Made by a program: the position numbers and the translations under genes. Below the pieces are notes generated by a model. The model was not told where the DNA came from, made no database searches, and worked only from the letters and a program-made list of their open reading frames with translations. DNA of 30,623 nt from a virus: the IMG/VR virus record IMGVR_UViG_3300030451_000328, positions 1 to 30,623 of that record; one strand, written 5' to 3'. Of this stretch, positions 11,201 through 30,623 are shown in pieces (positions within the stretch are counted from its first letter, which is position 1; each line of letters opens with the position of its first letter).

Positions 11201-14200
11201 CAAACACTCGCTGCTAACAATATGCAAGCTGCCATAGACGGGGTCGCAGCCACAGAACCAGAGGCTAAAAAAGCAATATTTAAAATTGCAGACAGTCCGA
11301 TGTTGAGAGCAGCAAAATTATCTGCTGCTTTATCAAAATTAGTTGGTAGTACAAAAGTAGAGATTGTAGACAGACTACCTGATCCTGACGCAGTTGGTAT
11401 GTTTACGCCTGAAACCAATACAATTAGTCTTGTTCGTGACGGTGGTTTGCATCAACATGTTGTTTTGCATGAAATGATGCATGCGGTTGTATCTCATATG
11501 TTAGATGCTAAAACACCAGTCCCAGAAGTAGCGCAATTAAACAGCTTATTTTTACAGATTAAAGATGATATTGGCGAGTTTTACGGATCTAAAGATTTAC
11601 AAGAATTTGTAGCAGAGGCACTGTCTAACCCTCAGTTTCAAACGCATTTAGCATTAACAAAAGTAGATAATGGCACTGTCCCTGCTTACAAAAAGTTTCT
11701 TCGCTCTATTATAAACATGATAAGAAAAGCCATGGGGCTTCAGCCTAGACCAGTAAACTCTGTACTAGATGAAGTAGATAATCTTGTACGAGCCATTATG
11801 TCCCCTGCACCTTCTACTAGAGCCGCTCCTGCAATGATGATGCAGATGACCGATCCAAACGAGTTAGCAGGCACGGTAAAAGGTTCTTTAGATATGATCC
11901 CAGAAGGAGATCAGAAAAGACTTAAAACATTTATGCGTCAATCTGCAAGCAGGTCTGTACCTGAAGCAGCTCGTCGTTTTATACTCAACAGCATTCCTTC
12001 TAACATAATGGCTAAAGAAGCTGCACCGTACATACCATTTGCACCTGAGTTAAATGCGATTATAGAGCGTCAAAGCGGAGAAATGCGTATTGGGAACATG
12101 GTTGTAAACAACCTAGACAAAAGATTAGGTGCGTATAATAGAAGGAACAAAGCAAGGTACAAGATTCTAGAGGGACTTATTCCTCTATCTACCTTTAATC
12201 GTGTAGATATGTCCTTGCCTAGAAAGGTATACTCACAGTTTGGTGTTTCTTTTAGAAACCTAAAGACTGGTAAATCTACTGTAAAATATTTTCCAACAGA
12301 GATAGCAAGATTAAATTTTGCAAAACAACACAACAAAAATATCGATCCTGCTAAAACTTCAAAAGCTGCTTTGTTGCCTGAACCTAATCCAGATACATTA
12401 CTTATGTATGATACGCTGCAAGCAGAATATAAAAAATTAGATAATCAAGGTAAGAAGTTATATCGTGAAGTGTTTGATTTGTTTGAAGAAACATACGACA
12501 AAATTATACCTGCTTTAGAATCGCGTATAGCTGCTTCAATAGGTGATCCAAATGGTAGAGCTAAAGCGATGGACAAACTTCGTAAGATGCTTACCGAACA
12601 AGCAGGTGTTATTCGCCCATATGCCCCACTAATGCGTAAAGGTGATTGGCGATTACAGTATACAACTATTGACCCAGACACAGGTGGGGTAGAAGTTTTT
12701 GTAGAATACTTTCAACATCAAGGCATGCTTGAAAAAGCAGCCGATGCTATACGTACTCGCAATATAGGTCTGATAGAACAGAACCCTAACTTAGCGCAGA
12801 CTTTAAACCCTGACACAGCCATAGAGTTCGGTAAAGCTACAGCACGTAGGAACTATGACAACGTGCCACCAAGCTCATTTATATTCGATTTGTTACAAGA
12901 ACTAAAAACCCAAGGCGTAGAAGGCGCAGCATTAGATGGTGTGATTGATCTTGTGTTTGACGCACTACCTGAGAAGTCGTTTATGCAAGGCTTTAGAAGC
13001 CGTAAAGATGTACGTGGCTACCTTGGCGATAAGACACCCACAGGTGCATTAGGTCAGCAATTTGATCTACGTGAGTTAGTCAATGTCAAAGGTCGTGACA
13101 TGAACAAGCAGGTCACACAGCTAAAATACGCAGCCGAAACAGAAGCATTTCGTAGAAAACTAGAAGTATCAGGTGCAAAAGAGAACCCTGACACATACCT
13201 AATGGCAGAAAAACTAGATCAAATGGCTAGGTTTGCACAGTCACCGAACTTGCCTCGTTGGTCACAGCAAGCCAATACATTAGGATTTGCAACCACCATG
13301 GGTCTTAACTTTTCATCTGCTGCCATAACTTTCTTTGATGTACTGATGAGTGCGATGCCTTTGATGTCCGCAGAGTATGGGTTAGGTAATACAGCCAAGG
13401 CGTATGGAGTTGCACGCAATTTGTTTGGGCAAGCTTCTTCTGTCTATACTGTTAGAGACATTGGTCCAGACGGTCAGCCACGTGTAAGAGAAATACAATT
13501 AGGTGGTATAAACAAGTCTATAGGTAATCTGGACGTTAACGCACCAGAGGTAGATGTTAACAATCCGCTGTATAGATATAAAACCGCAGTCAATATGGGT
13601 ATGGAACGCGGTATATTTAACCAGTCACTAACAGGCGAGATGCTAGAGGCAGGTTCGTCTCCAGGAAAAGCTATAGAAGCAATCAACTCTATCTCTGGTG
13701 GATTGTTTCACCACTCTGAACGATTAAACAGAGAAACAACATACATAGCCAAGTATGAGCTTGAGCTGCAAAAAAGAGAAAAAAGTGGTCCTCTAACTGA
13801 TCAAGATTATATTGATGCGGCTGAAGCTGCTATAGACTTTACAAACTTCTCTCTAGGTTCGACGGCTGCGGCAGGGCGTCCGATATGGGCACAAAGCGGT
13901 GTAGGTAACATATTATTCCTCTTCAAACGTTTTGCTGTTGGTAAGTACTACCTCATGTATAGACTAGCCAAAGATTCAATCGGCGCACAGATAGACGCTG
14001 ATCCTAACTTGACCCCAGAACAAAAAGCGGAGATGAAACGTATTGCTAGAAAAGCATTGTTTAACTTCCTATTTACCACAGGCGTGGTAACTGGTGTAGG
14101 CGGTATGCCACTGATGGGCTTCTTTGGAATGCTGTACGATATGTTCCGCGATGAAGAAGACGAGCAGTTTGAAGAAATGATGCGTAATAATTTGGGTGAA

Positions 14201-14881
14201 TTTTATTATGGTGGTCTAGCTAACGAACTTCTTGGCGTAGATATAGCAGATCGTATCTCTATGAACAGCTTACTATACAGAGAACCAATCGTAGGTAAAG
14301 ATCAGCCGATGCTATACACAATGTTTGAACAGCTAGGTGGACCAGTTGTAGGATACTATTTAGGTACTGAGAGAGCTATAACTGACTTTAGTCGAGGGGA
14401 GTACCGCAGAGGTGTAGAAGGCATAGCACCTGTGGCAATCCGAAACTTCATGAAAGCAGAGCGTTACGCCACTGAGGGTGCGTTAACTCGTAGACGTGAT
14501 CCGATTGTAGAAGATCTAAGCCCTTACAATATAATTACTCAAGCATTCGGCTTTGCACCGCAACACTTGGGATTGGCGATGGACATAAATCGTTTGTCTC
14601 GCAGACGAGATCAAGCATTAAAAGATAAGAAAACAAACTTGCTACGTAGACTAAACATGGCACGTAGAGAAAGAGATACAGCAGAATATCAACAAGTATT
14701 GAAAGAGATACGTGAGTACAACGCGGGATTACCTGAAGAATCACGTAGAGACACGTCTAAGGTTATTACCCCTGATTCTATAAAAGCTTCGGCAAGATCT
14801 TTCGAGACAACAACAGCAAACATGCGTAGGGGTATAACATACACCCCAACCATGAGAGAGATAGCCGAACAGTTTGATTAA
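8222..14881 (+). CDS. Giant polyvalent internal virion protein with zincin domain (2219 aa)
   Basis: At 2219 residues this is the largest gene in the window and follows the pattern of polyvalent proteins delivered with phage DNA. In order: an N-terminal region; a Gly/Ala hydrophobic segment near 140-185; a helical region ending in a glycine-rich patch (G-G-L-L-G-T-G-I-G-G-A-G) near 295-310; a long acidic low-complexity linker (about 315-620) with hexanucleotide-encoded D-T repeats; and a peptidase region with H1083-E1084-M-M-H1087 and a likely third ligand in E1128-F-V-A-E1132, the layout of a zinc metallopeptidase. After this come helical domains, a hydrophobic stretch (F-T-T-G-V-V-T-G-V-G-G-M-P-L-M-G-F-F-G-M) near 1957-1976, and a basic helical C-terminus (R-R-L-N-M-A-R-R-E-R-D). 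It probably acts in the ejection channel or in the infected cell; the substrate of the peptidase is unknown. Its stop codon overlaps the A-run opposite the leftward terminator. Confidence 0.82.
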   Translation: MGTFDTTGPRSGRPYGFNIQGDAPTDYEYAWISNYIQEQEEEYSKFYEQQLGKPLPEIDDGTAIGRGFRRGFQTAKGEVGELLESAGQLSGLEYLERIGSDIEESARQRAGELSISEPSANYSYKDVVADPSLDKGLTYAGELLGGSLPYMGAGVAGAAAGAVLPFATAGVGMTAGLGTLFAGQNLQRREEIVGEDNITGKDFAKAAGTALFQAKLDALGLKVLGKLLGGGQIARAVANEQGQGFVARLLTGAGTGLAVEGSTEVLQELAGLWQAGYELDTPEVEEILTEAFIAGGLLGTGIGGAGRAAFGKRKEPEVTEDTRTTDATEIEVKEDPAATIAGNLDTDEKVENRAEEIKAEEDAAQPEADTEEEIKTRTEVEDNVRSEPERTGTSDANRRPSVAGTEGTRSRDTDTEGFVPPDTRRVGTDLSTVESSNVAERKQSTTVKDKDKDKDKKEVPTFTSTRKEVPTFTSTRKQTIEENSTGELEVKTDEVPTEVTNELLDNLGVTKNAAIRRRITGKPITDKDVQRQLLSYGNNAIIRRQVPDYQTKLNELLTSLPEVEPEVDTDTEVDTDTDTDTDTDTDTEVDTEVDTEVDTEVEEDTNKLTGRALAEDIAAKARDPERQKAKEKEALEFDRQVAEAEAKRKEQELEDKAYEEAGEPIGAEYDAWKANYDAQKAAKKDSRRSGISVGEETGAPAGPNQFIPEGIRPVGKEPTLEELNIDASEEAQNQRLRDIEERVKQRNLKEDAPIIAPLKETYAAWWQQNNDKVLRDFVYERYDAPASDPALKLPVVFSEDVTKTLTLLETTRFTRGTGALGKPAKLYFSKIPSIIEVLDLIAYDAAGVIIHQSGKSKGQPVATYRKNKQVSDGENAFFEGTGNKNGLLAYEWVQNNLSDTARQWLEARAGMYIRFSNFIKVRQAAQTRKDERLEFDKDGTEATDLGTDIDSKASLQKHFRAFFLGRDAVVPFDVPMHPSVTRALDSGRLDLALQTLAANNMQAAIDGVAATEPEAKKAIFKIADSPMLRAAKLSAALSKLVGSTKVEIVDRLPDPDAVGMFTPETNTISLVRDGGLHQHVVLHEMMHAVVSHMLDAKTPVPEVAQLNSLFLQIKDDIGEFYGSKDLQEFVAEALSNPQFQTHLALTKVDNGTVPAYKKFLRSIINMIRKAMGLQPRPVNSVLDEVDNLVRAIMSPAPSTRAAPAMMMQMTDPNELAGTVKGSLDMIPEGDQKRLKTFMRQSASRSVPEAARRFILNSIPSNIMAKEAAPYIPFAPELNAIIERQSGEMRIGNMVVNNLDKRLGAYNRRNKARYKILEGLIPLSTFNRVDMSLPRKVYSQFGVSFRNLKTGKSTVKYFPTEIARLNFAKQHNKNIDPAKTSKAALLPEPNPDTLLMYDTLQAEYKKLDNQGKKLYREVFDLFEETYDKIIPALESRIAASIGDPNGRAKAMDKLRKMLTEQAGVIRPYAPLMRKGDWRLQYTTIDPDTGGVEVFVEYFQHQGMLEKAADAIRTRNIGLIEQNPNLAQTLNPDTAIEFGKATARRNYDNVPPSSFIFDLLQELKTQGVEGAALDGVIDLVFDALPEKSFMQGFRSRKDVRGYLGDKTPTGALGQQFDLRELVNVKGRDMNKQVTQLKYAAETEAFRRKLEVSGAKENPDTYLMAEKLDQMARFAQSPNLPRWSQQANTLGFATTMGLNFSSAAITFFDVLMSAMPLMSAEYGLGNTAKAYGVARNLFGQASSVYTVRDIGPDGQPRVREIQLGGINKSIGNLDVNAPEVDVNNPLYRYKTAVNMGMERGIFNQSLTGEMLEAGSSPGKAIEAINSISGGLFHHSERLNRETTYIAKYELELQKREKSGPLTDQDYIDAAEAAIDFTNFSLGSTAAAGRPIWAQSGVGNILFLFKRFAVGKYYLMYRLAKDSIGAQIDADPNLTPEQKAEMKRIARKALFNFLFTTGVVTGVGGMPLMGFFGMLYDMFRDEEDEQFEEMMRNNLGEFYYGGLANELLGVDIADRISMNSLLYREPIVGKDQPMLYTMFEQLGGPVVGYYLGTERAITDFSRGEYRRGVEGIAPVAIRNFMKAERYATEGALTRRRDPIVEDLSPYNIITQAFGFAPQHLGLAMDINRLSRRRDQALKDKKTNLLRRLNMARRERDTAEYQQVLKEIREYNAGLPEESRRDTSKVITPDSIKASARSFETTTANMRRGITYTPTMREIAEQFD
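9563..9649 (+). repeat. AAAGAT hexamer run plus 30-bp tandem duplication
   Basis: An AAAGAT run (about 9563-9589) encodes K-D-K-D-K-D-K-D. It is followed by two 30-bp units at 9590-9619 and 9620-9649 that differ at two positions and each encode K-E-V-P-T-F-T-S-T-R. All changes keep the frame of the 2219-residue protein. It lies in the disordered linker and looks like replication slippage. Confidence 0.9.
9905..10032 (+). repeat. GATACA/GAAGTA hexanucleotide repeat tract
   Basis: About 21 hexamers, mostly GATACA interspersed with GAAGTA, encode alternating D-T and E-V dipeptides (roughly residues 562-603 of the surrounding giant protein). The unit length keeps the frame whatever the copy number. 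This is a typical slippage-prone tract, and the encoded stretch is acidic and surely disordered. Confidence 0.93.
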
Positions 14882-21480: not shown

Positions 21481-22157
21481 CAGTTTCTCCCATTGTGGGC
21501 GCACTCAAGCACTGGACAATGACGTTTACACAACCCAGAGGGGCGTGGATTCCATACATCCGACTCAAATGCTTTTTCCATTTTACCATAAATTTCTAAC
21601 CATTTCTCCCAAAGATTTGGTTCTAAGTCAATTTTATATTCGGCTTTGACTAAGCTGTTTGCAACGACAAACAAGAGACCTGCTTTGACCCTTTTTATCT
21701 CAGGGAAATGTTTGAATACAGTAAGAGCCATTAATTCTAACTGTCCTTTGTCAGCGTACCTAGCCGACTTGCCAGTTTTGTAGTCTATGACATACGCAGT
21801 ATCTGCCAACACGTCTATGATTACTAGGTCAGCTATCCCGCGAAACCACACACGTTTATCAAAAAATCCACATGGTTCTAAATTGGCTGTCAAGCCTAAC
21901 TTTTGCTCGCATAGTTTTACACCGCGTCTAGACTTTAGATCATCTAGCATACCTTGAATAAACCCAAACTTTTCTGGGATTGGCACATCGCTGCCTATAT
22001 AATCCTCACAAGCTTTATGTAGTTCAGTGCCATAACGCATCGCCTCTGTTTCTTCCACAGGGTATTCTTTAAGTATCTTTTCATGGTAAAATTGTTTGGG
22101 GCATTGTTCAAACGCCTTTGCTTTACTGAATGACCAAGGTGCTATACTCACTCGCAA
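21480..22157 (-). CDS. Cas4/RecB-like PD-(D/E)XK nuclease (225 aa)
   Basis: Motifs of the RecB/Cas4 nuclease superfamily are visible: Y-G-T-E-L-H47 near the start, E84-Q-K, G-I-A-D110, V-I-D125-Y-K127-T-G-K, and the Q139-L-E-L helix (QhxxY-like motif). C19 (E-Q-C-P-K) together with C210, C214 and C219 at the C-terminus resembles the four-cysteine iron-sulfur cluster of Cas4 and AddB nucleases. An exonuclease role in recombination or end processing is expected from the family. The gene overlaps the polymerase gene by ten bases and is followed by TGATG to the basic HNH-like gene. It lies far from any CRISPR array, so a phage recombination role is likelier than adaptation. Confidence 0.9.
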   Translation of the reverse strand: MRVSIAPWSFSKAKAFEQCPKQFYHEKILKEYPVEETEAMRYGTELHKACEDYIGSDVPIPEKFGFIQGMLDDLKSRRGVKLCEQKLGLTANLEPCGFFDKRVWFRGIADLVIIDVLADTAYVIDYKTGKSARYADKGQLELMALTVFKHFPEIKRVKAGLLFVVANSLVKAEYKIDLEPNLWEKWLEIYGKMEKAFESDVWNPRPSGLCKRHCPVLECAHNGRN

Positions 22158-23962
22158 TCCCCATAAGACTTAGCTGTTCCGCTTTCACAATCAACAGGTA
22201 AGCCTTTCGCCCAACTAGGCGTCCACCGCATACATGTCTCTACAAATGCCTGTGCTTCTTTTACTTTGTTATCTTCTACACAGCATACAATACTATCGTG
22301 TACGGTCAACACAACTCTGTACCTCTTAGCTATCTTTAGCATCTGTTCGCCAATTATACAACGTGCTATGGCTTGGCAAACATTCTCTATCACCTTCCCA
22401 CCATAGATTTTGTTTCGGCCTCGCCGCACCTTGTATGTGTACTCATCACCGTCATAACTTAGATCTTCATAAAACAATGGAAGTCCAGACGGTAAGACCA
22501 AAGCCTTGTTACTGGCATCAACGCCAATTACGCCTTTGCGCCCAAACGCCACGGCTCTACCGTTAGTCAACTGACTAACCATGTACTGTGCATCGCGCCA
22601 CAGCTTACTAATCTTAAAGTTCGACTGACGGTAAATATTAATTATGCGTCGGGCTTCATCGGGAGACACTTCATACCCAAACGTCTTTAGTTGTGTTGCA
22701 AACTTCTCTGCACCCATGCCATAACCTGCGCCGAGTATGGTAGTCTTACCAACGAAACGCTGATCTTTTGTAACGTCCTCTTCTGGACAGCCGTATATAC
22801 GCCCTGCCATTTTGACGTACACATCTTCGCCGTTAGTGAACTGACTAACAAGATCGTCTTGTTCTGATAACCATGCAAGAACTCGCGCTTCAATCTGGGC
22901 ACTATCAGCCTCGACTATTGTATAGCCTTCGGGTGCAACAATGGCTTTCTTTAATTTCTTCGCATTGACCCCACGACTTGGCAAATTTTGTAGGTTGATT
23001 TTATCAGCCCCACCCCATCTACCTGTATGCGCCGCGTAGTATCTCACAGGTACAGGGAGCTTACCACGTTGAGCGATTCCTATAAACCTGTCTGTACGTG
23101 TCTCTTCTAGTGTGGACTTGTTGCCTAGCCGTGCCGAAACCAAAGTTTGTACACGATCATCCTCATGCTCAAGTAATTCCTTAAACCCTTCGTCGGACTT
23201 AGCAAACGCATACGTGTCTTTACCTGTTGTCGGACTTACCTTCATCGGCGGCTCGACATCAAACTCACGTAGCATCTCGGCAAACTTCTGGTTTGACATC
23301 AGGTCTTTCTTGTCGGTGACGTTGGCATCTTCTAATAATTTTTCTTTACGCGCCTTTGTGTCCTCAAGGTGCTGCTGCAACAACCCAAGATCCAACTCAA
23401 GTGTGGGTTCGATAAACATACGCAGAGACAAGTCTATCAGCTTTAACTCTTGTCGTGGGAAATTGACTCCCATACGACTGAATAACTGAAACGTCAGGTC
23501 TACATCATTCTTGGCATACTGTCCGTATCTCTTTATCTCTTCGTCGGTGAAATCGGCGCGGTGTTTGCCCTTGGCATTCTGCACCTCAGTACCTTTGATG
23601 CCTACACCGTACCTCTCGGCTACAGCTTTGAGTGATGCGCTTTTCTCTACACCATGCAATGCACGTGACATATACATAGTATCAAACCATATCTTTGGAC
23701 TAACACCGTATCGCCACTTTAGTATCGCTCCGTCAAACATCGTGTTGTGACAGAGTATACCACACGCAGAGAAGTCTATGTGTGATAACAGACGTTTGAT
23801 TTGTGCTGGGGAATCTAACCACACCGTAGAACCACTGTTCTTTTTGATAGCTAAACCAATAACCTCAAACTGTTCGTCGCGCACATACTCTTCTGTTGTC
23901 AGCTTGGACAGTGAGTAGTGTTGATCGTAATAAGTTTCAAAGTCTAGAGTGTAAACGTCCAT
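22148..23962 (-). CDS. Family A DNA polymerase with 3'-5' exonuclease (604 aa)
   Basis: This is the replicative polymerase. The proofreading domain has L-D7-F-E9-T, H72-N-T-M-F-D77 and Y149-A-K-N-D153. The polymerase domain has Y-Y-A-A-H-T-G-R-W (308-316), motif A V-E-A-D353-S-A-Q-I-E-A-R, motif B R402-F-V-G-K406-T-T-I-L410-G-A-G-Y414-G, and motif C V554-H-D556. Motif B has Leu where E. coli Pol I has Phe762. The ATG at 23962 overlaps the previous stop as TGATG; a GTG one codon earlier is possible. Two copies of an 18-bp palindrome lie in frame and encode V-S-Q-F-T-N (residues 372-377) and V-S-Q-L-T-N (462-467). No DnaJ-like insert or 5' nuclease domain was seen. Confidence 0.95.
   Translation of the reverse strand: MDVYTLDFETYYDQHYSLSKLTTEEYVRDEQFEVIGLAIKKNSGSTVWLDSPAQIKRLLSHIDFSACGILCHNTMFDGAILKWRYGVSPKIWFDTMYMSRALHGVEKSASLKAVAERYGVGIKGTEVQNAKGKHRADFTDEEIKRYGQYAKNDVDLTFQLFSRMGVNFPRQELKLIDLSLRMFIEPTLELDLGLLQQHLEDTKARKEKLLEDANVTDKKDLMSNQKFAEMLREFDVEPPMKVSPTTGKDTYAFAKSDEGFKELLEHEDDRVQTLVSARLGNKSTLEETRTDRFIGIAQRGKLPVPVRYYAAHTGRWGGADKINLQNLPSRGVNAKKLKKAIVAPEGYTIVEADSAQIEARVLAWLSEQDDLVSQFTNGEDVYVKMAGRIYGCPEEDVTKDQRFVGKTTILGAGYGMGAEKFATQLKTFGYEVSPDEARRIINIYRQSNFKISKLWRDAQYMVSQLTNGRAVAFGRKGVIGVDASNKALVLPSGLPLFYEDLSYDGDEYTYKVRRGRNKIYGGKVIENVCQAIARCIIGEQMLKIAKRYRVVLTVHDSIVCCVEDNKVKEAQAFVETCMRWTPSWAKGLPVDCESGTAKSYGDCE
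22562..22579. repeat. Palindrome copy A (within polA)
   Basis: GTTAGTCAACTGACTAAC: arms GTTAGTCA and TGACTAAC flank a two-base centre. On the coding strand it reads in frame as V-S-Q-L-T-N. It is one of five dispersed copies in the leftward arm. Confidence 0.9.
22832..22849. repeat. Palindrome copy B (within polA)
   Basis: GTTAGTGAACTGACTAAC: as copy A with one mismatch in the left arm. On the coding strand it reads in frame as V-S-Q-F-T-N, 90 codons upstream of copy A. Confidence 0.85.
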
Positions 23963-24408
23963 CACTTACTCACGACTTCGCCGCCACAAGCCATGTACCC
24001 ACAGGCGTCTACCCAGTTGTCTATGTGTGTGGGGTTAGAATGTATGCGAGCAATCTTCAGTAGTGCCATCATTGCTGCAACATCTTCGGTCTTTATGAAA
24101 TCAACTAGCCCAAGATGTGCGTTCCAATACAGAGCGATGCGTCTAAAGTTATCTTCCATATCGCCATGATCTGCTGCACGATCCTTCGTGACGTAACCTT
24201 TGGCTGTATCCAGTACCTTTGCACGATCCCACGTTTGTTTTATAGGCACTTCTTTGCGCCAGTTTTCTGATCCGATACGAGAAATAAGATTTTTTACAAA
24301 GTGTATGTCCACGTCACACGCGGCTGCTACCTCGGCGTTTTCGGCTTGCCTGTTGTTTAGAAGATACTCCCATACCTTCTCTTCCTTCTTCGACATATTC
24401 ATCCCCAC
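23962..24408 (-). CDS. DUF6378-like protein with N-terminal winged-helix region (148 aa)
   Basis: I recognise the C-terminal half as a DUF6378-type domain: V-L-D-T-A-K-G-Y-V-T-K-D-R-A-A-D-H-G, then M-E-D-N-F-R-R-I-A, W-N-A-H-L-G, and a helix with M-A-L-L-K-I-A-R. The N-terminal 50 residues (K-V-W-E-Y-L-L-N-N-R-Q, A-E-V-A-A-A-C-D-V-D, V-K-N-L-I-S-R-I) look like a winged helix-turn-helix. The function of DUF6378 is not established; it is frequent in phages and often linked to nucleotide or DNA metabolism genes. The GTG start at 24408 was chosen for the AAGGAG six bases upstream; ATGs at 24402 and 24396 are alternatives. Its first 95 bases overlap another open frame. It is coupled to PolA by TGATG. 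Confidence 0.78.
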   Translation of the reverse strand: MGMNMSKKEEKVWEYLLNNRQAENAEVAAACDVDIHFVKNLISRIGSENWRKEVPIKQTWDRAKVLDTAKGYVTKDRAADHGDMEDNFRRIALYWNAHLGLVDFIKTEDVAAMMALLKIARIHSNPTHIDNWVDACGYMACGGEVVSK

Positions 24409-24514
24409 GTTGTTCTCCTTTTTGCCATGGTGGTGGCGATAGACTTACGCTATCTTTGCCAAGCATTACTGATCTGCGTCTGTATCCACAGATTTCTTTT
24501 AATGTTACTTTCAT
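24314..24514 (-). CDS. Small ORF overlapping the DUF6378-like gene (66 aa), doubtful
   Basis: The ATG at 24514 overlaps the preceding stop as ATGA, as in most real junctions of this arm, and the frame covers what would otherwise be an about 100-base gap. The first 36 residues (M-K-V-T-L-K-E-I-C-G-Y-R-R-R-S-V-M-L-G-K) look like ordinary phage protein. The last ~30 residues, where it overlaps the DUF6378-like gene in a different frame, are charged and low in order. Either it is a short real gene with a long overlap, or only the N-terminal half was once coding. No function can be suggested. Confidence 0.5.
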   Translation of the reverse strand: MKVTLKEICGYRRRSVMLGKDSVSLSPPPWQKGEQRGDEYVEEGREGMGVSSKQQASRKRRGSSRV

Positions 24515-24699
24515 ATTCTTACACCGTTCATTCTCATCCTAGAGACAAACGATTTTAACTCTTCTCGCGCACGATACAAGTCCTGTTCTGTATTACGTGG
24601 CCTATCTCTTCGCCCAAGTTCATCTTGTAGCCTGTCAACTTGTTGTTTTAAGAAACGATACTCGTACCTAAGCGCAGGGCTTAACTGTTCATCACCCAT
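24511..24699 (-). CDS. Small coiled-coil protein of unknown function (62 aa)
   Basis: The product is a single charged helix with heptad character, L-R-Y-E-Y-R-F-L-K-Q-Q-V-D-R-L-Q-D-E-L, then R-A-R-E-E-L-K-S-F-V-S-R-M, and probably forms a coiled coil. There is no enzymatic motif. It overlaps the upstream gene by eight bases and the next start by ATGA, so it belongs to the operon. Its role is unknown. Confidence 0.7.
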   Translation of the reverse strand: MGDEQLSPALRYEYRFLKQQVDRLQDELGRRDRPRNTEQDLYRAREELKSFVSRMRMNGVRI

Positions 24700-24940
24700 C
24701 TGGTCTGACCTTTGGCTTTACGTCAACTTCTTTTATGCCTGACATGAACGGTGTGCGTCTACAGTACATCATGATCTCTTTACCATATGTATATGCAAGC
24801 ACATCATACAGATCATCCATCACTCCATTACCCATAGCCTCGTAGCATTCTTGCTCGCTCGGGAATATTACGCTTGTTGATACGTCCTGATCCTCAACAA
24901 CGTATTCGATAATTAGTAACGTGTAAAATAATTTAAACAT
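24692..24940 (-). CDS. Small protein of unknown function with hydrophobic N-terminus (82 aa)
   Basis: A strong AAGGAGG lies six bases before the ATG at 24940, the best ribosome-binding site in this part of the arm. Residues 2-15 (F-K-L-F-Y-T-L-L-I-I-E-Y-V-V) are hydrophobic but short and contain a Glu, so a beta strand or weak anchor is as likely as a signal. The middle has F-P-S-E-Q-E-C-Y-E-A-M and the end is V-D-V-K-P-K-V-R-P-D-G. Two cysteines are present. The strand-then-helix pattern with E-C-Y-E-A recalls small single-domain phage proteins of unknown function. The stop of the upstream 50-residue gene is part of the ribosome-binding region. Confidence 0.72.
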   Translation of the reverse strand: MFKLFYTLLIIEYVVEDQDVSTSVIFPSEQECYEAMGNGVMDDLYDVLAYTYGKEIMMYCRRTPFMSGIKEVDVKPKVRPDG

Positions 24941-24949
24941 CTATCCTCC

Positions 24950-25102
24950 TTAAAATGGTGGTTCTTCTCCATCGAAAGAGGGCAACCAAGCAACATGCTC
25001 TTCTTGCTGCACCTCCTCACGTTCTTCACACAGACCCATCTCTCTGAGAAACAGGGCTAGGTCTTCTGGTATGTCATCCATCAATTTTAATGTTTCTGAC
25101 AT
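24950..25102 (-). CDS. Small acidic protein (50 aa)
   Basis: This short frame fills the space between the XRE regulator and the 82-residue gene. Its ATG overlaps the regulator's stop as TGATG, and its TAA runs into the AAGGAGG of the next gene. The product begins M-S-E-T-L-K-L-M-D-D-I-P-E-D-L-A and contains an acidic helix (C-E-E-R-E-E-V-Q-Q-E-E). It ends in W-L-P-S-F-D-G-E-E-P-P-F. The tight packing and coupled start make it a likely real gene; no function is suggested. It could be a small acidic inhibitor or DNA-mimic type protein, but nothing in the sequence proves this. Confidence 0.65.
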   Translation of the reverse strand: MSETLKLMDDIPEDLALFLREMGLCEEREEVQQEEHVAWLPSFDGEEPPF

Positions 25103-25569
25103 CAAGCAATTCCTCCATTGTCTCTCTTGATGCGGCTGTTTACCCCAAGATTGTAAATTAGTTCTTGTTTGAAATCACATAAACTTTTATGAACCCTTGC
25201 AAGACCTACGGCAGTTCCTTCATCTGGGTTACATTTGTTAATCAGATCTTCTAACCGATCCACAACGTAGTGCATACATACTCTGTCATCTACATCATTT
25301 GCGGTTAATTTAGATAAATGATCGGACATGAGACTTGCTTTTTCTGCGGACGTCTGTTTTTGATGCTCCTCTTCATCTGTTGCGTACAAAAAACTTGTAT
25401 CGTCCAACGCAACTGCAATTTTTTCTAGAGGAGTAAATCTAGGAAACTTAACCTCATTGCGTTCAAGTCTGCTTAATAAAGATTGACTTACCCCTGCTTT
25501 TTCTGCCAGTTCGCATTGACTATCAAATTTTAGTTTTCTTAACCTTTTTAATTTTTTTCCGTCGATCAT
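25102..25569 (-). CDS. XRE-family transcriptional regulator (155 aa)
   Basis: The N-terminal domain is a Cro/CI-type helix-turn-helix: L-K-R-L-R-K-L-K-F-D-S-Q-C-E-L-A-E-K-A-G-V-S-Q-S-L-L-S-R-L-E-R-N, residues 7-38, with the recognition helix around S-Q-S-L-L-S-R. The rest (about 70-155) is helical and does not look like a LexA/CI peptidase, so it should not be cleaved in an SOS response. It may control early gene expression. The gene is coupled by ATGA to the VRR-NUC gene, and a perfect 18-bp palindrome lies immediately upstream of that pair, a natural place for an autoregulatory operator. Binding to the palindrome is inference. Confidence 0.85.
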   Translation of the reverse strand: MIDGKKLKRLRKLKFDSQCELAEKAGVSQSLLSRLERNEVKFPRFTPLEKIAVALDDTSFLYATDEEEHQKQTSAEKASLMSDHLSKLTANDVDDRVCMHYVVDRLEDLINKCNPDEGTAVGLARVHKSLCDFKQELIYNLGVNSRIKRDNGGIA

Positions 25570-25844
25570 CTAAACAACTCCTCCACTGTGTTAATGTTTT
25601 CTTCGTTTATTACTAGAGCGATGCCATCTGCTCTTTTGATCTGATCAAGGTTCACTTGTTGCAATGGTGTAGGTTTGTTTTTACCTGCCTTGCATTCGAT
25701 ACCGATGAACCGTCCATCATGACATGCTATGATATCAGGCACACCGCTGCGTCCGTACCCACTTGTTACTGGATAAAAGAAATACGCTTCATGCTGTTTT
25801 AGTATGGCAACGACTTTCTTTTTTACTTTAGCTTCTGGTGTCAC
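25566..25844 (-). CDS. VRR-NUC domain nuclease (92 aa)
   Basis: This is a stand-alone VRR-NUC protein of the PD-(D/E)XK superfamily: E-A-K-V-K-K-K-V (helix with the first acidic residue E4), G-R-S-G-V-P-D36-I-I, I-E50-C-K52-A-G, and Q61-Q-V-N-L after the catalytic K. Such phage proteins are thought to act on branched or flapped DNA, as Holliday-junction-resolvase-like enzymes. Its length is normal for the minimal domain. Translation starts at a GTG (25844) with AAAGGAG six bases upstream; a perfect palindrome (25861-25878) lies just before the ribosome-binding site. It is the first of a coupled run of small genes leading into the replication block. Confidence 0.9.
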   Translation of the reverse strand: MTPEAKVKKKVVAILKQHEAYFFYPVTSGYGRSGVPDIIACHDGRFIGIECKAGKNKPTPLQQVNLDQIKRADGIALVINEENINTVEELFR

Positions 25845-25860
25845 TGTTTGCTCCTTTGGT

Positions 25861-25878
25861 GTTAGTCACGTGACTAAC
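25861..25878. promoter_or_regulatory. Palindrome copy C, candidate operator of the VRR-NUC/XRE genes
   Basis: GTTAGTCACGTGACTAAC is a perfect 18-bp palindrome and the only fully symmetric copy of the family. It is the only copy that lies wholly between genes, 16 bases upstream of the GTG of the VRR-NUC gene and next to its AAAGGAG. The operator role is inferred from symmetry and position beside an XRE regulator operon. As RNA it would also fold as a hairpin next to the ribosome-binding site. Confidence 0.6.
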
Positions 25879-25912
25879 GTTGGTAACTGGCATAATTTGA
25901 GGGCGGTGAAAA

Positions 25913-26230
25913 TTACTTCCACTCGCCCCCCTCTATATAGAAAACGTGTCTGTCTTTACGCTCGCCTACTCCTTTAATGGGGGAAGTGATCATAAGCGCA
26001 GCAATCTTAGATTGCATCCACTGTGGCAGATCACTAACCGAATCATATTCTCCACGTATCTTCTCACATATACCTATACATACTACATCGACTTTATTCG
26101 AGGTAGGTTGTATGTAAACACGGTAAGAGTTGTCGTCAACCCATGAGAAGTATTTATTTTTAACTATACGTAGTTCACGCCGAGAGCGAATGCCACTTCG
26201 CCCGAACCTCTCATGAAACAGAGTAGACAT
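25913..26230 (-). CDS. Phage protein of unknown function (105 aa)
   Basis: Not recognised. The N-terminus is basic (F-H-E-R-F-G-R-S-G-I-R-S-R-R-E-L-R-I-V-K) and the middle is strand-rich (Y-R-V-Y-I-Q-P-T-S-N-K-V-D-V-V-C-I-G). A helix follows (L-P-Q-W-M-Q-S-K-I-A-A-L-M-I-T), and the end H-V-F-Y-I-E-G-G-E-W-K may form a last strand. The start at 26230 overlaps the upstream gene by 20 bases; M-R-like alternatives inside the protein lack a better ribosome-binding site. Downstream, a 68-base gap with palindrome copy C separates it from the VRR-NUC gene. It may belong with the unknown-gene block rather than with the nuclease operon. Confidence 0.65.
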   Translation of the reverse strand: MSTLFHERFGRSGIRSRRELRIVKNKYFSWVDDNSYRVYIQPTSNKVDVVCIGICEKIRGEYDSVSDLPQWMQSKIAALMITSPIKGVGERKDRHVFYIEGGEWK

Positions 26231-27092
26231 AGTAAATATTGCTCACGTCTTTTGGTCTAAAACCTACACCATCGCAGAACTGACCTTGAGGTAGAATATT
26301 AAGTTTCGCTATGCCTTCGGCTAAATGCTGTGGAAGATCCTCTGAGGTATACCATGTGCAATTCCCACCATCCCAATAGTATTTATCTACCGTCACTTGA
26401 GGAATGACACCGAACTTATTATCACCAGAACGTGTCTGTGTAACATACACTACGTCTGCCAGGTGACGCTCACGCTTACGATTTCTGTAGTCATCTAGTT
26501 CTTCAAACATGGTAACAAGATTAAGTTTAAACTCCTGATCCACAAACTCATAACCTGTCTGTAATAAGTTTCTCAACTCTATCTCCAACGGAGATTTGTT
26601 TTCCACCCCATCATTTGATATGAAGTCTCGCGCTATCTTGTCACGACTTTTTGTAGACGCTTCGTGTCTTGTTTCTTTTATGGTAGAAAATTCTAGTCTG
26701 GCAGAGTTGAATGTTTCGTGCACTATCTCGTCAACAGCGTATGGCACTAGATACCTACAAGCGTTCTTCACCGCTTTGTCAAAGTTAGTAGTAGCCGCAG
26801 AGTGCATCCGATCACTGTGTGCATATTTGCCGTTGTGTATCTTACGCGAAAACACTGTATACATATTTTTCTTTTCACCAGTATAGGAATAACTTTTGTA
26901 CCCAACGTATCCCAAAGCATAGGGTTCTTGTTCACGATAAATGTAGTACTCTGAACCTTCAGTATTTCTAGCCTGATATGTAGCACCGATCTTTTTGCAT
27001 ATCGCCTGCGCTAGTTTGAAGCCTTCGTGATAGTCGTTTGTGTTGTATTCGTCTGCTAGTTTAAGCACTTCTGCTATTGTTGTTGCTCTCAT
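26211..27092 (-). CDS. Phage protein of unknown function (293 aa)
   Basis: Not recognised as a named family. It starts M-R-A-T-T-I-A-E-V-L-K-L-A-D-E-Y, with GGAG seven bases before ATG 27092; a TTG further upstream at 27104 is unlikely because it would overlap that ribosome-binding site. The N-terminal half contains aromatic-rich strands (E-Y-Y-I-Y-R-E-Q-E-P-Y-A-L-G-Y-V-G-Y-K-S-Y) and H-S-D-R-M-H-S-A-A-T, and the middle is a long charged helical region. The C-terminal part again has aromatic strands (Y-Y-W-D-G-G-N-C-T-W-Y). It has no membrane segment. It is preceded by an about 120-base intergenic leader containing palindrome copy D and a possible stem-loop, so it may begin its own transcript. 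Confidence 0.68.
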   Translation of the reverse strand: MRATTIAEVLKLADEYNTNDYHEGFKLAQAICKKIGATYQARNTEGSEYYIYREQEPYALGYVGYKSYSYTGEKKNMYTVFSRKIHNGKYAHSDRMHSAATTNFDKAVKNACRYLVPYAVDEIVHETFNSARLEFSTIKETRHEASTKSRDKIARDFISNDGVENKSPLEIELRNLLQTGYEFVDQEFKLNLVTMFEELDDYRNRKRERHLADVVYVTQTRSGDNKFGVIPQVTVDKYYWDGGNCTWYTSEDLPQHLAEGIAKLNILPQGQFCDGVGFRPKDVSNIYYVYSVS

Positions 27093-27214
27093 AATTTTCT
27101 CCAATGTTAAGTTAAGTGTGCAGCCACTCGCAAGGTAACGAGCCTTACACTGACGCGGTTAAGAAGAATAAACAATATCCGAAACTTCAACGCACTCACG
27201 CCTTACGACCAAGT

Positions 27215-27232
27215 GTTAGTCAGTTGACTAAC
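27215..27232. repeat. Palindrome copy D, providing a stop codon
   Basis: GTTAGTCAGTTGACTAAC is copy A in the opposite orientation. Here the upstream leftward gene enters it out of phase with the in-gene copies, giving T-A-G as its stop codon, with further stops behind it. The rest of the copy lies in the leader of the next gene. Confidence 0.88.
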
Positions 27233-28289
27233 CTTTGGGTTTTGTCATAAATCCTGCATTTCTATTTATGAAGGAATTAAACTTGCTCCTCATTTTCTGT
27301 AAGTCCTCTTTTGTCTCGACATGCTTTACTGGATACTTGTACTCCCATCCAGTTGCTCCATACTCATAGTCTGCAATCTGAGTTGTAAACGAGACCCAGT
27401 AGTTCAAACGCATGGGATGTTTCTCATCACGTATTATCTCACGTGCACTTGTCGGTGTGAAATCATGATGTGAGTAACCATCCTTGCTCCCATAGTATGA
27501 ACGTAACTCTCTTGATTTATCTGTGTTATACTCATTACTCAAAGGTAGCAAAGGTGACATTGCCATACCCCATTCAAAGAGTTTGTTGATATCATCTTTG
27601 TACTCTTTCTTTAAGTTTTTGTTTACCTTCGGCTTTTGTGGCAGCATCTTACCAGATACTGGATCACGCACCCACTTATCTCCAATCTTAATGTATACTA
27701 ACGCAGAGTTGTCGTCTTTGGGTTGCATCCAATCTTTAAAATAATTCTCATCTTTGAACTCTTTGTAGTATCCACGCGGTACAGTCTTACACTTAGCTAG
27801 ATAATCTGCATTCACCGTTGTTCGTCCATGCAGAGAGACGTATTGAAGTGAGTTACCCATCACAAAAGTCATCCCACTTGGCATGTGTCTGTGTAAGAAC
27901 GCATAGCGACCCATGGAATAACTAGAGTTACTACCAACACAATTTCGTATCTGAACTGTCTCAGTCCCATCCTTGCGCTTACGCCAGACAATCGGTGCAT
28001 AGTACTCCATCTTACCAAGCCTGTCCCAATGGGTGATTGTAGTCTTAGTCTTGTAGTCATACTCATGTATCCCATAAGGTGTGAACTTGTCGTCACCTTC
28101 GTGATACCCATCGCTCAATGCGTAGCAGTTTCGGCTTATCTTAACGATACGCTCCCACTTACGTGCACGATCACCGATAGGTCTGATGTCGTCCTCACGC
28201 TTGTGAAGTTTAGATACGAGAGGCTTGATGTTGTTGTACCACGCCTCGACCTCGTCGAACTTTAGAAAATTTGAATATGTTAGTGCCAT
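27228..28289 (-). CDS. Phage protein of unknown function (353 aa)
   Basis: Not recognised. It is a soluble-looking, basic and tyrosine/tryptophan-rich protein: M-A-L-T-Y-S-N-F-L-K-F-D-E-V at the N-terminus, then W-E-R-I-V-K-I-S-R-N-C-Y-A-L-S-D-G, and I-V-W-R-K-R-K-D-G-T-E-T-V-Q-I-R-N. The composition with many R/K and aromatic residues, and G-R-Y-A-F-L-H-R-H-M-P, suggests nucleic-acid or large-complex contacts, but no motif supports a function. The start at ATG 28289 is overlapped by the preceding stop (TAATG) and has GGAGG eight bases upstream; a longer frame from 28304 would start inside that signal. The stop TAG is formed by palindrome copy D. The protein resembles the following 293-residue gene only in style, not in alignable sequence. 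Confidence 0.68.
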   Translation of the reverse strand: MALTYSNFLKFDEVEAWYNNIKPLVSKLHKREDDIRPIGDRARKWERIVKISRNCYALSDGYHEGDDKFTPYGIHEYDYKTKTTITHWDRLGKMEYYAPIVWRKRKDGTETVQIRNCVGSNSSYSMGRYAFLHRHMPSGMTFVMGNSLQYVSLHGRTTVNADYLAKCKTVPRGYYKEFKDENYFKDWMQPKDDNSALVYIKIGDKWVRDPVSGKMLPQKPKVNKNLKKEYKDDINKLFEWGMAMSPLLPLSNEYNTDKSRELRSYYGSKDGYSHHDFTPTSAREIIRDEKHPMRLNYWVSFTTQIADYEYGATGWEYKYPVKHVETKEDLQKMRSKFNSFINRNAGFMTKPKG

Positions 28290-28510
28290 TACTTTATCCT
28301 CCATACACGCATCTCACGTGTCTCTGGGTTAATTGTTTTAGATTGAGTTTTTATTCCTGCGGCTTTCGCAGCTTGCCACATTACATTACGCAGATAATTT
28401 GGAATTACGAAACTGTCTCCGACCTCCAAACTTTCGAGTGTTAGTCTCAACTCACCTTTTTTATCTGCGCCTTTCTTTGGGATTGGTATACCTTTTTCTA
28501 CTTTAAACAT
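28289..28510 (-). CDS. Small conserved phage protein, F-V-I-P / R-V-W-R family (73 aa)
   Basis: Read from ATG 28510, which has AAGGAG and then AACAACA in front, the product is M-F-K-V-E-K-G-I-P-I-P-K-K-G, followed by L-E-V-G-D-S-F-V-I-P-N, a helix (N-V-M-W-Q-A-A-K-A-A-G), and the ending E-M-R-V-W-R-I-K. The pattern is shared with the 74-residue protein at 14959-15183, at the opposite end of the arm. The longer frame upstream of 28510 overlaps the previous gene in a non-coding-looking stretch and is rejected as start. Function unknown. The family is small, soluble and probably single-domain, and may bind nucleic acid or a partner protein. Confidence 0.75.
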   Translation of the reverse strand: MFKVEKGIPIPKKGADKKGELRLTLESLEVGDSFVIPNYLRNVMWQAAKAAGIKTQSKTINPETREMRVWRIK

Positions 28511-28715
28511 TGTTGTTCTCCTTATTATATAACCAAAGAATATCTTTTTCTTGAACGCCAAAAGTATAGCGAGTTGGTTTGTCTCCTTTATTCGCCATAA
28601 ACCACTTTTGATCTGTTTTGTCTTTGTACTCGCCGTGAACGTAAATTCTCATTGGCATGTGTTTTTCAACACCACCAAACCAGAGAGCATGGGTAAAAGT
28701 ATTTTCTACCACCAT
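28503..28715 (-). CDS. Small phage protein of unknown function (70 aa)
   Basis: The start ATG 28715 has AGGAG upstream, ten bases away, and lies inside the end of a 29-residue membrane frame. The product is M-V-V-E-N-T-F-T-H-A-L-W-F-G-G, then strands P-M-R-I-Y-V-H-G-E-Y and W-F-M-A-N-K-G-D-K-P-T-R-Y-T-F-G-V, ending in D-I-L-W-L-Y-N-K-E. The beta-rich content suggests a small barrel-like fold. No active-site motif. The stop overlaps the next gene's start region by eight bases. Nothing in the sequence gives its role; the cluster suggests it belongs with the AAA+/VWA group or the unknown block. Confidence 0.65.
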   Translation of the reverse strand: MVVENTFTHALWFGGVEKHMPMRIYVHGEYKDKTDQKWFMANKGDKPTRYTFGVQEKDILWLYNKENNNV

Positions 28716-28795
28716 TGTAAAACTACTCCTATAATCCAGAGCATCACGGCAATGAACGTAATTGCCGCAATGATCCAATCTTGCCAATCAATCAT
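28706..28795 (-). CDS. 29-residue single-helix membrane microprotein
   Basis: The frame opens with ATG at 28795 that overlaps the stop of the VWA-like gene as ATGA and closes at TAG 28708-28706. It encodes M-I-D-W-Q-D-W, then a hydrophobic helix I-I-A-A-I-T-F-I-A-V-M-L-W-I-I-G-V-V-L, and Q-W-W. The tryptophan belts at both ends are typical of a membrane-spanning segment. Its coupled start and the absence of any other gene in the interval argue that it is real, although the length is at the limit of what can be judged by eye. It could tether or regulate the neighbouring AAA+/VWA proteins at the membrane. Confidence 0.6.
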   Translation of the reverse strand: MIDWQDWIIAAITFIAVMLWIIGVVLQWW

Positions 28796-30051
28796 TGTAT
28801 GTCCTCCGAATCCACATGTAAGACTGCGCCATGATCTGGTGTGGCGTTAGGATTATCAACGATCACCCACAACACAGGATGATCCCACTCACCCCAACCA
28901 CCATACAAGTGTCCGTCTGTGAATACGATTGAGGCTTGCGGTTCGATCTTATGCTGTTTGAGATACTCAGGCACACACCTTACGTCAGTGCCACCGCCGC
29001 CGACAGGTTTTGTTTTAGATGCAACGTCAGCTATCTCAGCGCCCACGTACTTCTCATAGCCACATACCTGTGTGTCCCAATAGCTTACATGCAGCTCGTC
29101 AGGTTTAACTTGTTCACAGATTGCAGCCAACTCACTGATCATGATCTGCTGTTCACGTGCGCCAATAGACCCAGACATGTCGTTGTGTTCTGCGAGACAC
29201 GTCACCGTTTCTTGTACACCGCTCGGCATAGCAATACGCTTACTGATGTATCTACGGTTTAGTCTTTTGAAAGTACTGAAATCTTTGCCTGTGCATGTAT
29301 TCTGAACAAACTCACGCAACGCTTGACGCCAATCGACTTTTGTTTTTAGCAACTCGTCAAGGTCACGATTACCACCGCTCCCAACCTTGCCTGCAATCGT
29401 ACTGCCTTGGCGCACCGCCTCGTCGATATCACGTTCCAACTCACGCTTATCTTCCTCAGTCATTTCTTCGGCTGCTTCCCAATCGTGATCATCGAATGGT
29501 TGTTGACCTTGCTCGTTAGTCGGTTGACTAACATCACCATCTGCGTCACCATCACCGCCACGACCACCGTCACCGCCACGACCACCGTCACCACCGCCAC
29601 GGCTTGGGGGCAACAAGTTAAACACTTCCTGTGTATTCATACCCACGTATTGTCTATCATAACACCCGCTTTCCAAGACGCCTGTCATTGTAGCAAACCC
29701 ATCTTGACTGAACTCATCTACAATCTTGATGTTGATCACATGGTCTGCCGCTCTGTTAGTACGATCTGCGTCTTTCTTCCAGAGATGTTTCCACGTGGTT
29801 AGATGCTTGAACAATTTGTGATATACCTCATGTAGCACAAGAAACCGCAACTCGGCATCGTTTAGACTAGCCACAAACGCACGGTTGTAGAACTCGTCTT
29901 TACCGTTTGTGTATGCGGTTCGATGTTTTGGATTGTCGGTAATCTCACGCCTACCGATCATCAGCACCGCAGATAGATATGGTGCTTTGTCCATGATTTT
30001 GACAACGGCTTTTGACAGCCGCTGTTCTTCTGTTAGATTTCCTAGAAACAT
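28792..30051 (-). CDS. DUF2201-like metallopeptidase/VWA-type protein (419 aa)
   Basis: This is a two-module protein. The N-terminal half has the zinc-peptidase motif V-L-H74-E75-V-Y-H78-K-L-F, matching the DUF2201-type N-terminal metallopeptidase-like domain. The C-terminal part carries E-H-N-D291-M-S293-G-S295-I, a form of the DxSxS metal-ion site of VWA domains, followed by a helix-strand pattern (I-S-E-L-A-A-I-C-E-Q-V). A Gly/Asp/Arg-rich linker (about 152-173) with a short tandem repeat joins them. Such proteins pair with MoxR-like AAA+ ATPases, and the end of one is the gene directly upstream, so they may form a chaperone or remodelling pair. AAGGAGG lies before the ATG at 30051. Peptidase activity is not established for this family. 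Confidence 0.85.
   Translation of the reverse strand: MFLGNLTEEQRLSKAVVKIMDKAPYLSAVLMIGRREITDNPKHRTAYTNGKDEFYNRAFVASLNDAELRFLVLHEVYHKLFKHLTTWKHLWKKDADRTNRAADHVINIKIVDEFSQDGFATMTGVLESGCYDRQYVGMNTQEVFNLLPPSRGGGDGGRGGDGGRGGDGDADGDVSQPTNEQGQQPFDDHDWEAAEEMTEEDKRELERDIDEAVRQGSTIAGKVGSGGNRDLDELLKTKVDWRQALREFVQNTCTGKDFSTFKRLNRRYISKRIAMPSGVQETVTCLAEHNDMSGSIGAREQQIMISELAAICEQVKPDELHVSYWDTQVCGYEKYVGAEIADVASKTKPVGGGGTDVRCVPEYLKQHKIEPQASIVFTDGHLYGGWGEWDHPVLWVIVDNPNATPDHGAVLHVDSEDIQ
29515..29532. repeat. Palindrome copy E (within the VWA-like gene)
   Basis: GTTAGTCGGTTGACTAAC: one arm has a C-to-T type change next to the centre. On the coding strand it reads V-S-Q-P-T-N in frame, just after the Gly/Asp linker. 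Fifth and rightmost copy. Confidence 0.85.
29552..29587 (-). repeat. 18-bp tandem repeat encoding the Gly/Arg/Asp linker
   Basis: Two identical 18-bp units (29552-29569 and 29570-29587, TCACCGCCACGACCACCG) plus a partial third unit encode G-G-R-G-G-D in the linker between the metallopeptidase-like and VWA-like modules of the host gene. In frame and slippage-prone. Confidence 0.88.
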
Positions 30052-30063
30052 TAATTGTCCTCC

Positions 30064-30623
30064 TTATACTTTATCTGCTGCAAACATGTAGTTGTTTGCC
30101 ATTGCCCAGTCGGTGAATTTCTTGTTAGTCATCACCATCGATTGCTTGCTGTACTTCGGTGAAGCAACGTTGTTAGCAAACAAGCCCTGTGTCTCAGGGT
30201 CTAGTCGATCAAGGTAATCCATCCACGCATTGAGCCAGTCTTTCTCCAGACTTGCCAGTGTACGATACACGACCATGACTTTTGCCGCCGCCGTATCAGG
30301 CACAAGCGCATTCTTTGGATCGTCTTTGATAGACTGAAGCGTAGGTAGTTTGTCGGCTAGTCGTATGAACGCCATGAGATCCTTCGCACCGCGCTGACCG
30401 ATTGTACCTATCAGTGCTGCCGTCAACTGTACGTCACTCAGGTGTGCACGTTTCTGTAAGATGCGCGATGCTTTCTCACCTGAACGTGGCGTGAAGAAAT
30501 GCTTACGACCCACGGCTTTGGGATGAAAGATAAACTCGTTCTCGTCTGGGTCTTTCACATTCTCCCACGGATAGAACAACTGTGGATTGTCCTTGACCCA
30601 AGCAAGTAAGAGGTGATCAATGC
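30064..30623 (-). CDS. MoxR/dynein-related AAA+ ATPase, C-terminal part
   Basis: The minus-strand frame is open to the right edge of the window, so only about 185 C-terminal residues are seen and the start is beyond it; an in-frame TTG at 30579 is internal. Residues near the left of the visible part read I-D-H-L-L-L-A-W-V-K-D-N-P-Q-L-F. Then come F-F-T-P-R-S-G-E-K-A-S-R-I-L-Q-K-R (sensor-2-like arginine context), Q-L-T-A-A-L-I-G-T-I-G-Q-R-G-A and F-I-R-L-A-D-K-L-P, which I read as the lid domain of a MoxR-type or dynein-related AAA+ ATPase. Walker motifs are outside. Its position directly before a DUF2201/VWA-like gene supports this. The identity is moderately sure because the ATPase core is missing. 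Confidence 0.65.
   Translation of the reverse strand, partial: IDHLLLAWVKDNPQLFYPWENVKDPDENEFIFHPKAVGRKHFFTPRSGEKASRILQKRAHLSDVQLTAALIGTIGQRGAKDLMAFIRLADKLPTLQSIKDDPKNALVPDTAAAKVMVVYRTLASLEKDWLNAWMDYLDRLDPETQGLFANNVASPKYSKQSMVMTNKKFTDWAMANNYMFAADKV

Follow-up and report, generated by a model that had tools for sequence, protein, structure and literature searches.

The palindrome GTTAGTC-N4-GACTAAC, repeated in the viral record IMGVR_UViG_3300030451_000328, very probably serves as a binding site on DNA. About ten such sites are spread through the early genes of its phage, and the product of a small early gene is probably a regulator of a new kind that recognises them. The stretch analysed here (the window) comprises 30,623 bases of that record and is a fragment cut at its right end. 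Comparison with related sequences establishes that its palindrome is one specificity of a system found across a clade of uncultured phages. On balance, we consider it rather likely that the palindromes are operators of a phage-encoded, sequence-specific early DNA-binding protein acting on a dispersed, autoregulated network of early genes.

The window contains five copies of the palindrome (copies A to E, Table 1), four exact and one with a single mismatch. A rescan allowing up to two mismatches matched the five positions given in a preliminary description of this DNA and returned no further copy within the window. Against these five, one hundred dinucleotide-shuffled windows held a mean of 0.13 palindromes and a maximum of two; chance as the source of the copies is excluded. 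The preliminary description had also confined the palindrome to the leftward arm. This holds within the window, but the window is cut, and the near-identical contig G001 (26,326 bp, a near copy of the window's arm at an offset of 10,369 bases and about 6 kb longer, with a PolA 99.8% identical to the window's) holds more copies beyond the cut, for 12 copies at up to one mismatch. It is there that the candidate regulator gene is found, the first gene of the early operon, which in related phages spans about 150–215 codons (hereafter the early gene, encoding the early protein).

Two pairs of closely related genomes differ in the letters of the palindrome. G001 and G021 are nearly identical in the ATPase (100%), PolA (98% over 434 residues), DUF3150 (98%), primase/helicase (97%), helicase (95%) and VWA (95%) proteins, and differ more in the exonuclease (89%). 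Eleven of the 15 places in G001 can be read at the orthologous position of G021, seven of them exact GTTAGTC sites, and at six of these seven G021 carries GTTAGCC-N4-GGCTAAC while the seventh is half-switched. Of the window's own copies, A, C and D have orthologous places that are switched symmetrically to GTTAGCC..GGCTAAC, copy E is half-switched, and for copy B, the one-mismatch PolA copy, positions 6 and 13 both differ in G021, as they do at the other sites. The second pair, L043 and G022, shares TerL (98%), TerS (98%), ATPase (99.7%) and DUF3150 (96%); seven of 12 places can be read, and T at position 6 becomes C in five of five, with A at position 13 becoming G in three of four.

The early protein (209 aa in the G001 type and 200 aa in the G021 type) is only 17% and 12% identical within these backbones (G001/G021 and L043/G022, respectively), and it is 60% identical between G001 and L043, which both carry GTTAGTC, and 55% identical between G021 and G022, which both carry GTTAGCC. 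In both pairs, then, the two versions of the early gene track the letters of the sites and not the genome backbone. Of the L043 genes with a counterpart in G001, the early gene and short opposite-strand open reading frames (ORFs) lack one in both G021 and G022; one of these ORFs, with 47 codons (L043 2913–3056), overlaps no longer gene. For G021 the comparison covered genes beyond position 22,000. Here the early gene has a match in G022 but none in the GTTAGTC phages, and the same holds for the gene of about 110 codons behind it (27394–27726) and for a few ORFs that overlap or lie on the opposite strand. If overlapping ORFs and short ones on the opposite strand are set aside, the early gene is the one, among those compared, whose two versions both go with the sites.

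A scan of viral contigs for the GTTAGTC palindrome returned at least 120 stretches, and 21 loci among those listed carry 3–11 distinct copies each. Other lineages hold 7–12 exact copies with few or no near-misses. On long contigs the copies lie mostly in and around the early arm, up to about 15 kb from the early gene, apart from isolated sites such as one at 301 in G028 and a one-mismatch place at 50380 in G004. When loci were instead collected by alignment of the early ATPase (the best 80 of 492), five had an exact GTTAGTC palindrome and 75 had none; among these 75, another palindrome with 7-bp arms occurs at least twice in 66 and at least four times in 47, and nine showed no repeated 7-bp-arm palindrome at that setting. 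A profile search found the early protein family in 74 of 118 sources, all 74 of which carry a repeated palindrome in 2–12 copies, each above its own three shuffles. Several short contigs among them, with two copies only, had been included through the GTTAGTC motif. Selection by motif does not apply to 42 of the 74, which came in by way of the ATPase and have at least three copies each.

Eleven palindrome types are distributed over these 74 sources: GTTAGTC-N4 (32 sources), GTAGTGA-N1 (15), GTTAGTG-N3 (11), GTTAGGGA-N2 (4), GTTAGCC-N4 (3), TTCGGGCA-N2 (3), GTAGTTT-N1 (2) and four types with one source each. Types were assigned by string rules from the best-scoring repeat of each source against three base shuffles, with G004 typed by hand; site counts for some types used looser patterns (6-bp arms, alternative letters), genes were called mechanically as ORFs, and the sources are partly dependent (L113 and L221 come from a single record, and certain others are nearly identical). 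In the consensus strings of the main types the span of the palindrome stays constant at 17–18 bp with a spacer that varies from 1 to 4, an arrangement that suits a protein dimer on DNA. A 164,582-bp record (G009, with locus L012) has seven GTTAGTCACATGACTAAC-like sites at up to one mismatch, and the early profile has no match in the stretch of it that was analysed.

Close similarity of the early protein goes with a shared palindrome type. Pairs with an early protein identity of at least 0.5 share their type in 118 of 124 cases, and those with at least 0.8 in 37 of 37. On trees of 47 sources, reduced from 61 by dropping near-identical ones, the fewest type changes were needed with the early protein (11, against 13 for DUF3150 and 16 for the ATPase; the minimum is 9). 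The area under the curve (AUC) for predicting a shared type was somewhat better for the early protein than for DUF3150, VWA, TerS or TerL. Three loci (L224, L229 and L231) contain two members of the early family.

The sites are placed non-randomly. They lie between mechanically called genes in 250 of 497 cases, compared with a random expectation of 0.16, and a fraction of 0.18 falls 0–30 bp ahead of a start, against 0.05 at random. In 56 of 68 sources the 260 bp upstream of the early gene include a site with no more than one mismatch (random 0.14), and some sources without one look like over-extended ORFs with the site just inside. Further sites recur at the start of the DUF3150 gene (55 of 63 sources and 8 of 10 types; random 0.11) and, against random values of 0.10–0.12, at the starts of the ATPase (29/61), VWA (24/50) and TerS (6/60) genes. 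The gaps between successive sites widen downstream (medians of 155, 372, 479, 1120 and 1368 bp), which may be explained by the short genes near the early gene. Two ideas in the preliminary description, selection for symmetry at the level of DNA and an operator network, find support here in the in-place switch, the repeated palindromes across the clade, the non-random positions and the sites upstream of the early gene. By eye, a TATAAT-like element, a candidate early promoter, stands about 31 bp downstream of the site upstream of the early gene in L136 and L142.

Several observations weigh against assigning the sites to the early protein. G001 and G021 differ elsewhere too, for their giant proteins are 27% and a 301-aa protein 58% identical, and several small G001 genes, including that of an XRE protein, have no match in G021. 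The neighbour of about 110 codons co-switches with the early gene in the GTTAGCC version. L043 is mixed, with four exact GTTAGTC sites and six with one mismatch, which makes its pair with G022 less clean. Over all pairs, the AUC of the early protein (0.699) has no advantage over that of the ATPase (0.701), because the GTTAGTC type includes early proteins of very low mutual identity. At an ATPase identity of at least 0.85, the 77 same-type pairs have early protein identities of 0.22–1.0 (median 0.68), and the 10 different-type pairs 0.12–0.57 (median 0.26). The early family was not found by profile in 44 of the 118 sources; of two such sources inspected, G027 has a diverged 180-codon gene at the expected place that the profile missed, and G035 has no TerS by which position could be judged. 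The early proteins themselves contain no recognised helix-turn-helix or other DNA-binding domain. Ten of them had no NCBIfam match, a set of 40 gave only single stray Pfam matches and stray PHROG matches, the most frequent a weak one to an Arc-like repressor family in two of the 40, and neither of two structural models matched a fold in the PDB at E ≤ 0.001. Lastly, no tyrosine integrase (PF00589) was found in 15 records, several of them fragments, with 14 of 14 controls detected and serine integrases and plasmid prophages outside the search; classical lysogeny is unsupported for that reason.

The two AlphaFold models give some picture of the early protein. That of a 176-aa member has a mean predicted local distance difference test (pLDDT) score of 92.7 and consists entirely of helices, and that of a 209-aa member (pLDDT 81) has helices and two strands. 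Aligned with VIA-align, the two models reached best Z values of 5.3 and 6.5 over short helical stretches, and a BFVD search with one model found an uncharacterised phage protein as best match (E 8.5e-3). Family searches of early proteins gave one weak Pfam match (NST1, 0.006). A missing fold match is no proof of a new fold.

According to the model that we favour, the early protein would bind the palindromes, probably as a dimer, and would regulate its own gene through the upstream site. Bound protein would stop or limit transcription of the early operon, acting at an operator where the site lies at the promoter and as a roadblock where it lies between genes. As in superinfection immunity, related phages sharing the cell would exert the pressure to change specificity. 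The early protein is thus pictured, by analogy, as probably a repressor or roadblock that works most like the stoperator system of Cluster A mycobacteriophages (L5, Bxb1). Reports on these phages describe a repressor with an N-terminal helix-turn-helix and 20–30 genome sites, at promoters and in short intergenic spaces; the sites are asymmetric 13-bp elements oriented with transcription, and their consensus varies by subcluster, changing with the repressor (PMC6550527, PMC9283540). As with stoperators, the sites described here are dispersed and often intergenic, and their lineage-specific consensus changes with the putative regulator, with the AUC showing no advantage over the ATPase. Unlike stoperators, they are crowded near the early gene, the early protein has no recognised helix-turn-helix (one model is all-alpha), and no tyrosine integrase was found; because the sites are palindromic, the system falls outside the stoperator family.

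Other dispersed operators offer looser parallels. In actinophage phiC31 a near-perfect inverted repeat is present in many copies between early genes and is bound by the phage repressor; a literature search brought no confirmation of this. The C1 repressor of P1 has 22 operators dispersed over the phage genome, some of them at the repressor's own promoters (PMC8546580), but these are 17-bp asymmetric sites of a temperate, plasmid-kept phage, whereas those described here are palindromes.

Named phages are only distant relatives of the clade (VWA up to 31%, DUF3150 34%, ATPase 25% identical), and one early protein searched had no match among them. Planktothrix phage Pag-Yong1 (L290, OL906435) has a comparable layout: its ATPase, DUF3150-like and VWA genes, though differently ordered, belong to an early operon that diverges from the terminase. 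The stretch read contains 12 exact and 10 one-mismatch copies of a palindrome of its own, GGTTCAG-N-CTGAACC, and 16 of these 22 sites are intergenic although 85% of the stretch is coding; eight of the 22 are centred 29–30 bp before the next start. The first early gene of this phage (187 codons) has a site upstream and no match to the early profile. Literature searches listed nothing on Pag-Yong1 or on palindromes of marine phages, and the entries listed on repeated palindromes in lytic phages and on DUF3150/MoxR/VWA proteins showed no description of such a network.

Many sites lie after the stop codon of one gene and ahead of the ribosome-binding site that follows, a position that would also suit stem-loops of early mRNA bound or cut by the early protein. 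The regular spacing of the eight Pag-Yong1 sites before the next start would fit such hairpins, and the switch from T6/A13 to C6/G13 preserves pairing. However, among 93 one-mismatch sites of seven types downstream of the early gene, taken from related contigs that are not independent, 14 would give G-U pairs and 20 A-C pairs on the sense strand (P 0.39), with 59 others, and this lack of G-U bias in the near-misses speaks against a selected RNA stem. By eye, the site before the early gene in G005 and G008 is upstream of a TATAAT-like element, and another site stands just behind a terminator-like stem. The span of 17–18 bp, kept while the spacer varies, likewise argues for a protein on DNA, and we regard hairpins as an unlikely basis for the sites.

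A role of the early protein and its sites in segregation, replication or DNA organisation, as loading sites of the ParB or KorB kind, appears quite improbable. Its appeal comes from KorB of plasmid RK2, whose palindromic operators (OB) serve in long-range silencing by a CTP-dependent sliding clamp (PMC11790492); the sites here are palindromic too. Against this, the Pfam matches of 40 early proteins include no ParB-type family, although a diverged domain is possible, and the sites are found upstream of the early gene and in the intervals that separate early genes.

Phage N4 has hairpin promoters that are read by a phage RNA polymerase. The clade has ATPase and VWA genes distantly related to the gp24/gp25-like ones of N4, and its sites stand directly before ribosome-binding sites, so that the palindromes could be promoters of this kind. 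Against this, none of the proteins was recognised as an RNA polymerase (that of 2219 aa in the window matches DarB-like and uncharacterised families; a search with PF00940 gave no match anywhere, controls included, and carries no weight), copies lie deep inside the PolA and VWA genes, and the stretches of the N4-like phages LIT1 and SBP1 show at most two copies of any such palindrome and hence no network like that of the phages described here. We judge this explanation very improbable.

A selfish palindrome had been left open, and the shared reading phase of the copies inside genes had been singled out as a puzzle that a regulator alone would not explain. The peptides reported, VSQLTN and VSQFTN in PolA and VSQPTN in VWA, are correct, but they come from two genes and not three. 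Read in one frame, the palindrome gives TAG and TAA; read in another, it gives TGA if the last centre base is T. Among 39 distinct in-ORF copies (ORFs of at least 80 codons, in the window and the GTTAGTC sources), 24 read V-S-x-x-T-N and 15 use the L-V frame; the stop frame is never used. The phase needs no special explanation, because stop codons bar one frame. In an alignment of nine PolA rows, VSQFTN and VSQLTN replace other residues with zero insertions or deletions, which makes them substitutions. The sites are present in the window and partly in G007, where the second place reads VSQLAN; the remaining seven rows lack them. At copy B the mismatched base preserves a Phe shared by all nine. 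A mobile palindrome is unlikely because the PolA sites lack such gaps and because letters change at sites that stay where they are; there is no pattern of insertion and empty site. That the palindrome is a selfish element, or a methylation or nuclease site, is therefore scarcely credible, even though many copies lie in genes with conserved arms and free centres, since the orthologous places carry switched letters, the positions are non-random and no enzyme family was recognised in the early protein.

Two other candidate explanations were rejected. The XRE helix-turn-helix protein of the window (25102–25569) was considered as the binder, but it has no match in G021, and among the motif-bearing loci L006–L125 it is matched only by L020, a piece of the G001 record, and L027; its close match to the latter (L027/G007) extends over the first 70 residues only. 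A bacterial operator was sought as a T/A-flanked 20-mer, which appears in 33 stretches of a genome collection (84,980 species by its description) with one copy each; this covers the T/A-flanked GTTAGTC palindrome only, and not other types or prophage sites lacking such flanks. Several of the 33 stretches extend by eye as terminator-like symmetric stems, and five are from Lewinella cohaerens. In two Woesearchaeota genomes the palindrome is inside a longer repeat with identical flanks, in nine stretches (L147, L148, L154, L156, L164, L171, L173, L174 and L176).

Dispersed operators that change together with their repressor are known from temperate mycobacteriophages. An operator network read by the early protein would extend the same logic to an uncultured phage clade in which the sites are palindromic, the early protein belongs to no recognised family and a tyrosine integrase was not found. 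More speculatively, and with considerable doubt on our part, the early protein could represent a DNA-binding family of new fold that serves as a key of exchangeable specificity in phages without sign of lysogeny. Each lineage would then carry its own private palindrome about ten times in its early genes, a swap of the key would select for the rewriting of all copies, and virulent phages may silence rival relatives by early shut-off. If true, such shut-off of co-infecting relatives would amount to immunity without lysogeny. The genome pairs on either side of the switch make the joint change of regulator and about ten scattered sites testable, and Pag-Yong1, an isolated cyanophage with its own palindrome network, may offer a culture system.

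Table 1. Palindrome copies, the genes that carry or adjoin them, and the candidate regulator gene (window coordinates unless G001 is given)
Feature	Position	Strand	Remarks
Copy A	22562..22579		inside PolA, V-S-Q-L-T-N
Copy B	22832..22849		one mismatch; inside PolA, V-S-Q-F-T-N
Copy C	25861..25878		intergenic; 16 bp before start of gene 25566–25844, upstream of its ribosome-binding site
Copy D	27215..27232		its TAG is the stop codon of gene 27228–28304
Copy E	29515..29532		inside VWA gene, Gly/Asp-rich stretch, V-S-Q-P-T-N
Family A DNA polymerase (PolA)	22148..23965	-	PF00476 8.8e-40, phrog_17; carries copies A and B
Hjc-like nuclease gene	25566..25844	-	PF01870 2.2e-5; behind copy C
Early-arm gene ending in copy D	27228..28304	-	no Pfam or PHROG match
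VWA gene (DUF2201)	28792..30051	-	PF13203, PF09967, phrog_1314; carries copy E
ATPase gene	30064..30621	-	phrog_1297; cut by window end
Candidate regulator (early) gene	G001 23971–24600		about 3.7 kb past the window's right end

Homologues of the early-arm gene that ends in copy D were present in 9 of the 19 sources clustered. Outside the early arm genes listed in Table 1, window positions 8222–14881 encode the 2219-aa protein, which has an HExxH motif and matches DarB-like antirestriction and uncharacterised giant phage families. A second repeated element was seen by eye near several sites: a 'ccagtt' element lies beside the copy C region (window 25885–25890), and at about 440–570 of L133 a repeated element with 'ccagtt' and 'cggtcgcggtgagcca' stands beside the control-region sites.

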